34,930 nucleotides of DNA from Nitrospinaceae bacterium (GTDB lineage Bacteria; Nitrospinota; Nitrospinia; Nitrospinales; VA-1), in contig JAJDBI010000112.1 in NCBI GenBank assembly GCA_029261435.1, forward strand, positions 1 through 34,930, written 5' to 3'. Positions within the stretch are counted from its first letter, which is position 1. Each line of letters begins with the position of its first letter. The notes beneath the pieces were generated by a model. The model was given only the letters and a program-made list of their open reading frames with translations, ran no database searches and was not told the DNA's origin. A program made the position numbers and the translations under genes. Positions 14,945-28,027 of this stretch are shown one piece after another.

Positions 14945-16744
14945 TTATAACGTTTTCAAGTACTCGATGATAGCGAGACGTTCTTCTGGAGCGAGCTTAG
15001 GGCCAATAATGCCGTTGCCCCTACCTCCGTCATTGAATTCATGACCGGAGTTGGAACTCCCTTTAATGGAAGTGTCCAGCTCAAAGCCTCCAGAAAAGGA
15101 GCCGGTATTGAAGCCCACGTGTACCGGATCAAACTCTTTACTTCCAAGGAAAAAAGTTTTAGATCTCTCGTAAACAGGAGAAAGTAATTCGTAAAGGTTG
15201 GGAACCGACCCGTTGTGAAGAAACGGGGCTGTTGCCCAAACACCATTTAGAGGCCGGGCTTTGTAACCCCAGGGGGCTTGAATCAAGTTCTTGCGGTACC
15301 CGTTCATCCGATCCCGTTCCTCGGGAGGAATATTGTTAGCGTCGTACCAATAATTGTTCACATTTTCGACCACTTTTCCCAGAGCCGGGCCCATGTGCGT
15401 TCCTTCAGTTATTGGAATCCATTTATTAGTTTTTTCCAGGACCCCTGCATTTTTAACCACTCGCGTGTTGAAATTATCAAGAAGTGTGCGATCGGTTCCT
15501 ACTTGATCAATTTCAATGACATTTAGGTGCAGCAACCAAGGCCCAAACTTTTTGGTCCAGTATTTTGGATCACCACTTTCGAGATCTTTTTTCAACTCGG
15601 CCATGGGTGGAAGGTGACACCCCTGGCAATGCATGTCATACAAATTCTTGCCCTGTTCAGCTTTGGATTGATTGATTTGACCCAGTGTTTCTACGGGCCA
15701 TTTTGGAGACATGAGCCCATTGCTAAAAGGTTTTTCCCCGGCCAGCCATTGCTCGATATGAAAAAGATTGCGAACTTGGACGGTTGATTTATAGAGGTCT
15801 TGTTCTTTTCTCAAGTTGACAGGAGCCTGCACACCAAGAGCCTCTCCAGCATTACGAATCATGGGTTGGTGAATGGAAGCATTGTATTGCACCCAGTCGA
15901 ACCAGGATGAATCCCAGATATGCGGATAGTTAACCGGTGCATCCACTGGAGAAAGGTTTGCTGTGTTTATGGGGCCGGGGGGATTGGTGTTATTCATGCT
16001 CCAGCCGAAAACCTGGTTGAGAATACGACCCAACGCATCGGTACGAGCAAACCCTCCTTCCACCACCTCCAGTTCCAGTTTGTCATTAACTTCTGCTTGC
16101 TTGACTCCCGCATCGATTAGATTTTTAAAACTTGTTTTGAGTTTCTTGGCTGTCTCCTTGGAATAGGCAGTTTTTAAAACCCTTTTGGCAAAACGATCAA
16201 ACCTGCCCGGTACATAATAGGTATACGCCACTGAAAGCCCAACGGCTTTTTGAAAATCCGCGAGGTGGGTCATGGCGGGTCCACCTTCAATACGAATACC
16301 GATGGTTTTTCCATTTTTCTTAATGTGAAGCTCGGCTGTGTGGCAGGCCGCGCAAGTCAGGCCAAGCATAGGCATTTTTGCGCCACTAATAGGATCTGTG
16401 AAATCGGGGTCGAGGGCAAACCCTATGGGTAGATTATTGGGATTCAGCTTTGAGTCATAATTGGTATCGGGAATGAATCCGATTCTTGCTAAATAATCAC
16501 CATGACTGAGTAACTCGGGATCGCTGAAAAAAGTTAAGGTGGGTTGTTCAAGAGACACAAACCAGTCATAAGGAAGAACCCGCGTTCCTTGTGGGGTGTA
16601 ATAAAACTTCTGCCGTATTTCTGTCGACCAGTTCTGGTCCAGAAACTGATTCTCATCGACCTTTTGTAATTCGGGTAATGTTGACATGCAACCCGTTATG
16701 GAAAATAGAATATACAAAGCGGCCCAATGCCTGAAGCTTTTCAT
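14945..16744 (-). CDS. Diheme cytochrome c lipoprotein, RoxA/MauG-like
   Basis: Lipobox ITGC; CAACH and CQGCH heme motifs; GIRIEGGPAMTHL; LNGVWATAPFLHNGSVPNLYELL. Confidence 0.8.
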   Translation of the reverse strand: MKSFRHWAALYILFSITGCMSTLPELQKVDENQFLDQNWSTEIRQKFYYTPQGTRVLPYDWFVSLEQPTLTFFSDPELLSHGDYLARIGFIPDTNYDSKLNPNNLPIGFALDPDFTDPISGAKMPMLGLTCAACHTAELHIKKNGKTIGIRIEGGPAMTHLADFQKAVGLSVAYTYYVPGRFDRFAKRVLKTAYSKETAKKLKTSFKNLIDAGVKQAEVNDKLELEVVEGGFARTDALGRILNQVFGWSMNNTNPPGPINTANLSPVDAPVNYPHIWDSSWFDWVQYNASIHQPMIRNAGEALGVQAPVNLRKEQDLYKSTVQVRNLFHIEQWLAGEKPFSNGLMSPKWPVETLGQINQSKAEQGKNLYDMHCQGCHLPPMAELKKDLESGDPKYWTKKFGPWLLHLNVIEIDQVGTDRTLLDNFNTRVVKNAGVLEKTNKWIPITEGTHMGPALGKVVENVNNYWYDANNIPPEERDRMNGYRKNLIQAPWGYKARPLNGVWATAPFLHNGSVPNLYELLSPVYERSKTFFLGSKEFDPVHVGFNTGSFSGGFELDTSIKGSSNSGHEFNDGGRGNGIIGPKLAPEERLAIIEYLKTL

Positions 16745-22879: not shown

Positions 22880-23212
22880 ATGATCACAGATCGTTATACA
22901 AAAATCATATTAACTGTTCTCACTATTGCATTAATCCTCAATGTTTTTGACCGATGGATCGCTCCCTCTCATGCGGTGGCAGCAGAAAATACGTCCCTTG
23001 ATATAAACAAAAACCATAACAACTGCTCATCAGTAAACAAAAATTCGATAAAAATTATGGATGGAGTAAATAACGTAGAAAGATTGCTGGGATACATCGA
23101 ATCTTCGGTGAATGACATTCAATTAACCATTTTAGGCATTGATCGAAAGTTGAATAAGTCGTCTTCCAGTAGCTCATGGAACAAGGGCGAATTGATTGTC
23201 ACAAGAGAATAA
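22880..23212 (+). CDS. Small membrane-anchored/exported hypothetical protein
   Basis: MITDRYTKIILTVLTIALILNVFDRWIAPSHAVAAE N-terminal TM or signal segment. Confidence 0.6.
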   Translation: MITDRYTKIILTVLTIALILNVFDRWIAPSHAVAAENTSLDINKNHNNCSSVNKNSIKIMDGVNNVERLLGYIESSVNDIQLTILGIDRKLNKSSSSSSWNKGELIVTRE

Positions 23213-23467: not shown

Positions 23468-24397
23468 ATGAAAAACATAATGTCGGAATCATTGGACCTT
23501 TTGAAGGTCCAATACTCCTTTACTAAGGCAGATGAAGGTTTACTTCTACAAATGAAACCTCACTTGGAATCTCATGTCGTTGAATTTTTGGATGGCTTTT
23601 ATGAGTCGATTTGGAAACTCGGAAATGTCTCTGAATTCTTTGAAAATGATCTGGCATTCAATCAGCATCGCGACATTATTCGTCAATGGTACCTTGACCT
23701 ATTCGCTGGGGCTTATGGAGCTGATTATTTTTTAAGTCTTGCAAAAATCAGAGAGGCACACGCAAAGTTGGCAATCCCTACCCACCATATGATGGCATTA
23801 TTTTACTTTACTCCAACATTTACCATAGACACTATCCAGAAGCATAATTATGACGATAATTACTTGTCCAAAAGGATTAAGGCAATTGAAAAAATCCTGG
23901 CAATTAACTTAGACATTTTAACGGGTTCCGTTCGAGAAATTGAAACAAGCCAATCTTCATCCATTTCCAGGCTTGAAGTTAAGTTACTTAGATATCTACA
24001 TACTGTTGGGGCCTATTTCAATTATCTGCTTATGGGAGCCCTTGTGATGGTGGCAACTTTCGCGATTGGGTTGTTCGGGTATGATATTTATCTCTTGTTT
24101 TCAGGGAACGCTTCTATTGAAATTGGCATTTTAACCACTTTAGGAAGTCTACTGATACTTTGGGCAGCGATTGAGTTAATCAATGAGGAAATTAAACATT
24201 TGAGCGGTGGAAGCTCTGCCTTGGTTGCATTTATAACACTTGCTATTGCGGCATTGATTCGGAAAATATTAATTGTTTCTCTCTCTCCAGATAAGACAAA
24301 CGAAATCCTTATGTATGGGCTATTAGTACTGCTTCTAAGTATTTCTTATTGGACAATTTCACTTACATTGAAACCTCAAAAGCTTCAGGTGAATTGA
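23468..24397 (+). CDS. Protoglobin-domain protein with C-terminal multi-TM (PsiE-like) domain
   Basis: Globin-coupled-sensor pattern DGFYESIW...YFLSLAKIREAHAKLAIPTHHMMALF followed by four hydrophobic helices including ALIRKILIV. Confidence 0.75.
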   Translation: MKNIMSESLDLLKVQYSFTKADEGLLLQMKPHLESHVVEFLDGFYESIWKLGNVSEFFENDLAFNQHRDIIRQWYLDLFAGAYGADYFLSLAKIREAHAKLAIPTHHMMALFYFTPTFTIDTIQKHNYDDNYLSKRIKAIEKILAINLDILTGSVREIETSQSSSISRLEVKLLRYLHTVGAYFNYLLMGALVMVATFAIGLFGYDIYLLFSGNASIEIGILTTLGSLLILWAAIELINEEIKHLSGGSSALVAFITLAIAALIRKILIVSLSPDKTNEILMYGLLVLLLSISYWTISLTLKPQKLQVN

Positions 24398-24444: not shown

Positions 24445-24915
24445 ATGAACCCAAAAGACGAAATCCAGAAACTCATCCAAGCCGAAATGAAAAAGTGGGA
24501 GGACTACGAAGATAAGAATGATAAATTACGGATTCATCAAGCAGATAACTTCAAATTCATTTGTGCTCTCCTGAATGACCTTGTCGCATCGATCGAACCA
24601 GAATATACCAAGACAAATATTCTGGATGGCCATGCAACATTAAAGGTTGGCAATGATATAGACCGTTCGAGCTTTATCAGTTGGACCATCCAACCGAACT
24701 TTATAACACTGGAGAGTAAGGAAGAGTACTGGAACACCAATCTTTGGCAAGACAAAGTAAATATAGAGGCGGAACCCGGTTTTAAAGTACAGGAGAAGCG
24801 AGGTGATGACGTAGAAACGAACTCTGAGTTTGGGACAGAAAATGATTTAATTAATTATCTCGCTCAAGAAATCGCCAAGAGAGTCGCTTTTTACCGTTAC
24901 AGAAAAAACGTTTAG
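24445..24915 (+). CDS. Hypothetical protein
   Basis: 156-aa ORF with SD-like AGGAAAGAAGG upstream, co-directional with the globin gene. Confidence 0.5.
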   Translation: MNPKDEIQKLIQAEMKKWEDYEDKNDKLRIHQADNFKFICALLNDLVASIEPEYTKTNILDGHATLKVGNDIDRSSFISWTIQPNFITLESKEEYWNTNLWQDKVNIEAEPGFKVQEKRGDDVETNSEFGTENDLINYLAQEIAKRVAFYRYRKNV

Positions 24916-26323: not shown

Positions 26324-28027
26324 ATGCAGGTTTCTCATTCAGCCGAATCGGCCCTCGACTCGACTATTTCACGCAATGATTTGCAGGTGCTTCTGGTTTA
26401 CCCCAACACTCGGGATGTGGCTATGGCCAACCTGGGTTTCCAGCAGGTTTATTCTCTATTGAACAAAATTGAAGGAGTGGTTTGTGACCGTTTTGCCATG
26501 CCCGTTGGGTGGAAGCCGGAAACGCAATCGTTGGAACGCGAAGAATTGCGTTCGATGGATCTACAGATGCACCCGCTTGAGTTCGATGTTATCGCGTTTT
26601 CAATTTCGTTTGAACCGGATTACCTGAACACGGTGCTGGCCCTGAAATACTTTGGTATTCCGCTGGATCGCAAGGGGAGAGACGCTTCTTTTCCGATGAT
26701 AACAGCAGGGGGATCGGCGATATTCATCAATCCTGAACCGTTGGCAGAGTGTATGGATGTTCTGTACATTGGTGAAGGCGAAGGCATGGCCGAAGACTTT
26801 TTTAGCTTGTTGCGCGAAAACGAAGATCGGGATCAATTTTTTGAACGCGCAGTTTCCATTCCCGGAATTTATTTGCCGCAGCATTATCGTCCTCGGATGG
26901 AGCAGGGCCTGCAAGTAGGCGTTTTACCTTTAGAGAGTGCCCCTGCCCGTGTGGTACGGCATTGGGTAGTGAAGGAGGAATCACTTTGCACACACTCGGT
27001 TCTGCATGATGAAGACTCTACTTTCAAAGATATGGCATTGATGGAGGTTACAAGAGGGTGCATTTGGGCCTGCCGGTTTTGCACGGCAGGTTTTATATAC
27101 CGTCCTCCTCGTTTGCCCGATCTCGAAAAAACATATAATTCTATGGATACCCTGCTCACCGGCCTTGGTAAATCAGCGCAGACCATCGGTCTGGTCGGGC
27201 CATCAGTGACCGATCACCCGGACTTGCCAGCGTTAGCCCGGAAAATTACCGAACAGGGTAAGAAACTTTCGTTCTCTTCTTTGCGGATGGAAACGCTCAC
27301 CGATGAGTTGGTGGATCTGATTCTGCAAAGTGGTCAGAAAACTCTGACGGTGGCTGTGGATGCTCCTTCTGAAAAAATGCGCGATGTCATTAATAAGGCC
27401 GCAACCGATGACTACATCGTTGAGAAGTGTCGGTTCCTCACCCGCAAAGGCATTCTTCATTTAAAAATCTATTCCATTATTGGACTGCCTTTAGAAACGG
27501 AAGATGATATTGACCAATTCATTCGGCTTGTTGAGAGGGTGCAGGAAGGTTATGTCGAGGAGTGCCGGAAGCTTGGGCGTATTGGCCAGTTGACGATTGG
27601 CCTGAGTCCGTTAGTGCCCAAACCCGGAACACCGTTTCAATGGCACCCGATGGAATCGGTGAAGAGCTTAAAGAAAAAGTTTGCCCGGGTGAGAAAGGCT
27701 CTGGGGAAAATACCGTATCTTAAAATGAGTTTTGGTTCTCCCAACGAAGCCTACCTGCAAACATATTTGTCGCGGGGAGATCGGAATACGCAGGAATTTT
27801 TCAAAACTTATTTGAATAACGGTCATGATGCCAAGAGCGCGTTGAAAGAGCATCCCGTTGATGAGTATGTTTACCGGCAATATGAAAAGAATGATTACCT
27901 TCCCTGGGATATTGTGGATCACGGTTACCGTGAGAACTTCCTTTGGGAAGATTATCAACGCGGATTAAAAGCCGCACACACTCCCGTATGTGATACGGCT
28001 ATCTGTCACATCTGCGGCCTCTGCTAA
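26324..28027 (+). CDS. B12-binding-type radical SAM protein (TIGR03960-like)
   Basis: TRGCIWACRFCTAGFIYRPPR (CxxxCxxC); N-terminal VLLVYPNTRDVAMANLGFQQVYSLLN. Confidence 0.88.
   Translation: MQVSHSAESALDSTISRNDLQVLLVYPNTRDVAMANLGFQQVYSLLNKIEGVVCDRFAMPVGWKPETQSLEREELRSMDLQMHPLEFDVIAFSISFEPDYLNTVLALKYFGIPLDRKGRDASFPMITAGGSAIFINPEPLAECMDVLYIGEGEGMAEDFFSLLRENEDRDQFFERAVSIPGIYLPQHYRPRMEQGLQVGVLPLESAPARVVRHWVVKEESLCTHSVLHDEDSTFKDMALMEVTRGCIWACRFCTAGFIYRPPRLPDLEKTYNSMDTLLTGLGKSAQTIGLVGPSVTDHPDLPALARKITEQGKKLSFSSLRMETLTDELVDLILQSGQKTLTVAVDAPSEKMRDVINKAATDDYIVEKCRFLTRKGILHLKIYSIIGLPLETEDDIDQFIRLVERVQEGYVEECRKLGRIGQLTIGLSPLVPKPGTPFQWHPMESVKSLKKKFARVRKALGKIPYLKMSFGSPNEAYLQTYLSRGDRNTQEFFKTYLNNGHDAKSALKEHPVDEYVYRQYEKNDYLPWDIVDHGYRENFLWEDYQRGLKAAHTPVCDTAICHICGLC

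Follow-up and report, generated by a model that had tools for sequence, protein, structure and literature searches.

A protoglobin-PsiE fusion protein of a Nitrospinaceae bacterium as a candidate membrane-bound globin-coupled sensor

Results and discussion

The gene at 23468-24397 of the window (the whole stretch of 34,930 nucleotides that was analysed) encodes a protein in which a protoglobin-type domain precedes a four-helix membrane domain of the PsiE family, and judged by its sequence this protein is best read as an integral-membrane globin-coupled sensor belonging to a widespread, uncharacterised family. The reading favoured here, with a probability of roughly 0.55, is that the heme ligand of the sensor (NO or O2) or its redox state would control the PsiE domain. 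The features on which this reading is built are listed in Table 1.

Table 1. Features of the fusion gene, its downstream neighbour and related BLUF fusions (window coordinates unless a locus is named)
Feature	Coordinates	Strand	Evidence
Protoglobin-PsiE fusion gene, 309 aa	23468..24397	+	Orf, Pfam, family model (E 1.2e-153)
Protoglobin (globin-coupled-sensor type) domain, residues 8-151	23489..23920	+	Pfam E 5.9e-19; 2W31 by sequence (E 2.5e-21) and by fold
Tyr45, topological B10, distal pocket	23600..23602	+	Aligned with Tyr70 of HemAT-Bs (1OR4); Tyr in 47/57 relatives
His67, topological E7, distal pocket	23666..23668	+	Four residues before the GsGCS HisE11 position (Ile71 here); His in 47/57 relatives
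His98, predicted proximal heme ligand HisF8	23759..23761	+	Aligned with His93 of 2W31; His in 52/57, Phe in 5
Linker, residues 152-184	23921..24019	+	Helical in model, net positive ahead of TM1
PsiE domain, residues 185-298, four transmembrane helices	24020..24361	+	Pfam E 4e-18, hydropathy, models
Glu236 in TM2	24173..24175	+	Invariant, 57/57
Arg265 in TM3	24260..24262	+	Invariant, 57/57
Next gene, 156 aa	24445..24915	+	Without Pfam or NCBIfam match; homologue also downstream of the globin-less PsiE in L130 (G048)
BLUF fused to PsiE	L129:5264-6148, L131:4581-5498, L132:5555-6439, L134:956-1840		BLUF E 6e-30 to 2e-32, PsiE E 2e-35 to 4e-37

Domain organisation of the fusion protein

The orf runs from ATG to stop; translation could also start at Met5 (23480), the first residue covered when the family is aligned. 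The initial annotation had described a protoglobin fused to a PsiE-like domain in place of a methyl-accepting (MCP) or GGDEF output, and every element of this description holds: in a single frame of the orf, the Pfam profiles Protoglobin (PF11563, 69 bits against a curated cut-off of 25) and PsiE (PF06146, 66 bits against 23.9, model positions 3-118 of 122) match well above their cut-offs, and the second domain is PsiE by Pfam, with no MCP or GGDEF output. Both domains also score above cut-off in all six further intact fusions scanned, which come from three phyla; an NCBIfam search with the fusion protein of the window returned no model. The genome to which the window belongs (3.04 Mb, 81% complete) contains exactly two protoglobins and two PsiE domains, and these are paired as two fusions. 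A search with a narH profile, prompted by the guess that the organism oxidises nitrite, gave no more than a weak match over 52 residues.

In an AlphaFold2 model of the whole protein, built on only three alignment rows, pLDDT is mostly 75-86 in the globin and about 50-70 in the four helices, so that the model is of moderate quality overall. Foldseek placed this model closest to PDB entry 2W31 (TM-score 0.86 by target length), the globin domain from the globin-coupled sensor of Geobacter sulfurreducens (GsGCS), which is also the closest solved structure by sequence.

Heme pocket

The register of the pocket was taken from alignments with 2W31 and HemAT, giving Tyr45 as B10, His67 as E7, Ile71 as E11 and His98 as F8. 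The histidine in KIREAHAKLAIP that had been singled out as a candidate proximal ligand is His98, and its alignment with His93 of 2W31 identifies it as HisF8. L098, the orthologue of the window gene, retains HisE7 and HisF8. The window copy departs from the consensus of an alignment of 57 fusion proteins, the relatives counted here, at globin positions R95, P116, A145 and V155. The globin of the window protein has TyrB10, HisE7 and HisF8 in its pocket and is predicted to bind heme b.

Membrane domain

The four-helix, PsiE-like character ascribed to the C-terminal half is borne out by the profile match and by four hydrophobic segments with peaks near residues 195, 228, 261 and 289. The distribution of lysine and arginine fits a four-helix N-in/C-in topology that places the globin in the cytoplasm, and this is probably the true topology. 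Besides the invariant charged residues of TM2 and TM3, residue 241 is glutamate in 53 of 57 relatives and residue 244 is histidine in 46 of 57; together E236, E241 and H244 make up an E/E/H cluster that closes TM2. A model of the PsiE half alone forms four helices, with pLDDT mostly 70-87 across the first hundred residues, and its comparison with the PDB gave no match with E below 0.001, so no mechanism for PsiE can be drawn by analogy. PsiE is a Pho-regulon protein, and its gene is also part of the locus of heat resistance of E. coli. E. coli PsiE is under the control of PhoB and cAMP-CRP (PMC4415409). In the literature search, no activity was stated for any PsiE protein.

These residues bear on one alternative to the favoured reading, that the protein senses redox state and not gas, a bis-His heme (E7/F8) reporting electron flow or the state of the quinone pool to the membrane domain or taking electrons from it. 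The heme of GsGCS162, the closest structure, is bis-His by way of HisE11 (PMC4476040), HisE7 would be an alternative sixth ligand in the window protein, and the E236, E241, H244 cluster lies at the end of TM2; yet His244 (46/57) and HisE7 (47/57) are not conserved throughout and nothing points to a cofactor in PsiE, and a purely redox role is considered unlikely.

Selection on the two halves

Of 28 disjoint pairs of relatives, 24 show stronger conservation in PsiE than in the globin (Wilcoxon P 1.3e-5), and between the canonical copy and L075 dN is 0.003 in PsiE and 0.087 in the globin. The window protein and that of L098 are 64% identical in the globin and 85% identical in PsiE; dN is low and synonymous change is high or saturated, and for the globin half of the window copy pN is 0.195 against a pS of 0.81. 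Both halves are therefore under purifying selection, and the slower evolution of PsiE argues against its being a mere passive anchor. PsiE is also retained in lineages that have lost HisF8 or the entire globin.

Distribution, paralogy and loss of the globin

The family model is matched by 32 of the 78 genomes of Nitrospinota, the phylum of the window. Reading by eye finds the fusion in 29 of the 78 (28 of them whole, one truncated where its contig stops); the other three matching genomes have only PsiE without globin, or BLUF-PsiE. Among Aquificota, 108 of 136 genomes match the model and about 78 have both halves, 62 of them in one piece and 16 in two pieces owing to an insertion. Only the two anchor genomes out of 369 have the fusion in Gammaproteobacteria (the class of MAG L001), a rarity that suggests transfer, and a plasmid collection contained no relative of the fusion. 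The architecture had been put forward as unusual; the domain pair is real, but it is no one-off, the family being spread over many genomes.

Of the two fusion copies in its genome, the window gene is the second, divergent paralog. In a tree of PsiE domains, which has few columns and long branches and is unsure at its deep forks, the window protein groups with L098 (G017) and with the globin-less L130 (G048) and L146 (G046) with an SH-aLRT of 98. The gene that follows the fusion is probably an ancestral neighbour, its homologue lying downstream of PsiE in L130, and two upstream genes are common to L098 and L130. Given these shared flanking genes, the four loci look like one ancestral locus from which the globin was lost in G046 and G048; no globin remnant was seen in the 700 bases upstream of the L130 PsiE. 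A second, separate loss of the globin occurred in Aquificota (L127, L128, L141). Since the window copy is divergent and its sister genes have lost the globin in two genomes, it may sense differently from the canonical copy.

Intermediate forms are found as well. At L142:832-1635 and L143:846-1649, PsiE carries a short, degraded N-terminal domain, intermediate between the fusion and stand-alone PsiE; that of L142 has no Protoglobin match. Five fusion proteins, all in one Aquificota branch (L116-L120), have phenylalanine in place of the proximal HisF8, L116 still matching the protoglobin profile (E 1e-20), and judging by this substitution the branch probably no longer binds heme in the usual way. 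Since the globin of some Aquificota relatives is degraded or has Phe at F8, heme is not a requirement in every member of the family. In the fusions of L122, L123 and other Aquificota, roughly 30-40 extra residues are inserted into the globin near residue 130.

If PsiE is the working part, the globin of the divergent window copy could be a regulatory cap that is vestigial or works without heme, as it may be in the Phe-F8 Aquificota. At least two losses of the globin inside the fusion clade, one of them in the sister lineage of the window gene, and the degraded intermediates L142 and L143 speak for such a cap; TyrB10, HisE7 and HisF8 are nevertheless kept in the window copy, HisE7 and HisF8 are kept in L098, and the globin half is under purifying selection, all of which make a vestigial globin improbable in the window protein.

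Exchange of the sensor: BLUF-PsiE

The place occupied by the globin at the N-terminus of globin-PsiE is taken by a BLUF domain in proteins of 294-305 aa from three genomes of the window's phylum (G026, G046, G048) and in L134 of the Gammaproteobacteria set (BLUF E 6e-30 to 2e-32, PsiE E 2e-35 to 4e-37). The other BLUF proteins of the phylum are short, unfused frames of 105-175 aa. The PsiE domains of BLUF-PsiE form a clade separate from those of all globin-PsiE proteins, which indicates that the globin and BLUF fusions arose independently. If PsiE is an output driven by a sensor, one would expect to find a photosensor at the same N-terminal place. From its domains, BLUF-PsiE is a candidate for a natural light-controlled membrane protein; in those parts of the literature that the search brought up, no paper describing BLUF-PsiE was found, and co-mentions of BLUF and PsiE appear, by title and abstract, to concern other contexts. 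Larger PsiE proteins of Gammaproteobacteria (L135-L140) were considered and set aside, being apparently over-extended at the start and without a recognisable sensor; in this set only L134 is truly a two-domain protein.

Gene neighbourhood

Within about 4 kb of the fusion, loci of the window's phylum include truncated-globin genes (PF01152) at 10 loci against 0.17 expected, and near the fusion Rrf2 regulator genes at 6 loci against 0.07 and NnrS genes at 2 loci against 0.04, figures for which the neighbour pairs were taken from tables by hand and the loci, which span three families, were treated as independent regardless of shared ancestry. Two more truncated globins were seen at gene level, one of them adjoining the canonical fusion of the window's own genome. 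The clearest cluster (L096:3181-13205, G038) consists of Rrf2, a truncated globin, a second globin-like protein, NnrS and globin-PsiE. Among the 87 proteins scanned, a hand-picked nearer subset of 196, genes with CBS domains are common near fusions as well. The neighbouring Rrf2 proteins have only two conserved cysteines near the expected site and for this reason were not called NsrR. NnrS and group III truncated globins are tied to nitric oxide stress, and in this phylum the fusion family goes together with genes that hint at a nitrosative or oxygen-stress response. At the Aquificota loci whose neighbours were scanned there are housekeeping genes, with no link to gas sensing.

The fusion locus of the window itself has no truncated-globin, Rrf2 or NnrS neighbours, its neighbouring genes at 22880-23212 and 24445-24915 have no match in Pfam or NCBIfam, and promoter and terminator scans remained at the level of shuffled sequence. 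Elsewhere in the window, 14945-16744 (reverse strand) encodes a di-heme cytochrome c peroxidase family protein with weak similarity to rubber dioxygenases, and 26324-28027 (forward strand) a TIGR03960-like radical SAM protein that scores below the cut-off of the model. At L098:13594-15382 (G017) there are tandem short repeats with the translation LDPNFLSAKI / LGSNRN.

Truncated globins and NnrS as neighbours point to NO handling, and a pocket with HisE7 and TyrB10 could allow chemistry on NO or O2; the protein might then be a membrane-tethered globin that acts close to the respiratory chain by scavenging or dioxygenating NO or by binding O2, with PsiE mainly as an anchor. An anchor should evolve faster than the globin, yet PsiE is the more conserved half; it has invariant charged residues within the membrane, it survives without globin in L127, L128, L130, L141 and L146, and BLUF, which takes the place of the globin in a separate clade, is a sensor and not a scavenger. 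A tethered globin is accordingly given little credence beside a sensor that controls PsiE.

Proposed mechanism

The initial annotation had proposed a heme sensor acting directly through a membrane module, and this remains the best reading, although heme and gas binding and the activity of the membrane half are what we infer. In the favoured mechanism, a diatomic ligand (NO or O2) that binds to or leaves the heme, or a change in heme redox state, would move the globin and the linker, and this movement would switch the state of the PsiE domain, which would be the effector. One guess is that PsiE has a small permeation activity, or one linked to protons, centred on the invariant glutamate of TM2 and arginine of TM3.

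More tentatively, PsiE might be a membrane effector that sensors in general can drive, perhaps a gated channel of small size or a proton-linked switch, and one that became connected independently to a heme-based gas sensor and to a flavin-based sensor of blue light. If so, globin-PsiE would be directly gated by gas and BLUF-PsiE directly gated by light, without a kinase or second messenger. The fusion of PsiE to two unrelated sensors, of gas type and of light type, offers a handle on PsiE, the signal being one that can be supplied externally. Should PsiE respond, heme or light would be coupled to a membrane effector within a single protein, in contrast to the usual outputs of globin-coupled sensors.

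Comparison with known systems

Globin-coupled sensors combine an N-terminal protoglobin-type domain and a proximal HisF8, both of which are present in the window protein, with a C-terminal domain, which here is PsiE and whose role as output is inferred from the exchange with BLUF and from its conservation. HemAT, DosC/YddV, BpeGReg and AfGcHK likewise begin with a protoglobin-type heme sensor with HisF8; their output domains are MCP, GGDEF or histidine kinase, whereas the second domain of the window protein is a membrane domain, PsiE. The closest relative of solved structure by both sequence and fold is GsGCS of Geobacter, to which the globin half is 33% identical. Full-length GsGCS is about 300 aa long and consists of a globin and a C-terminal transmembrane domain, and because of this similar layout a globin-plus-membrane architecture is probably not new as such. 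The distal pockets differ: in GsGCS, His66(E11) is the sixth heme ligand and the heme of GsGCS162 is bis-His (PMC4476040), whereas the window protein has Ile71 at E11 and HisE7 instead, so that the HisE11/HisF8 pair of the GsGCS subtype is not present.

In its membrane half the window protein resembles E. coli PsiE, whose four-helix domain is matched by the same profile (PF06146); E. coli PsiE is a stand-alone protein that bears no N-terminal globin. BLUF-PsiE (L129, L131, L132, L134) shares the arrangement of a cytoplasmic sensor followed by PsiE but has a flavin-based blue-light sensor where the window protein has a heme globin, and its PsiE belongs to a different clade. A literature search for globin and PsiE together gave only an unrelated co-mention. 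What the protoglobin-PsiE family adds to the known globin-coupled sensors is the identity of the membrane domain as PsiE, the exchange of globin for BLUF, the series of decaying globins and the NO-type genomic context.
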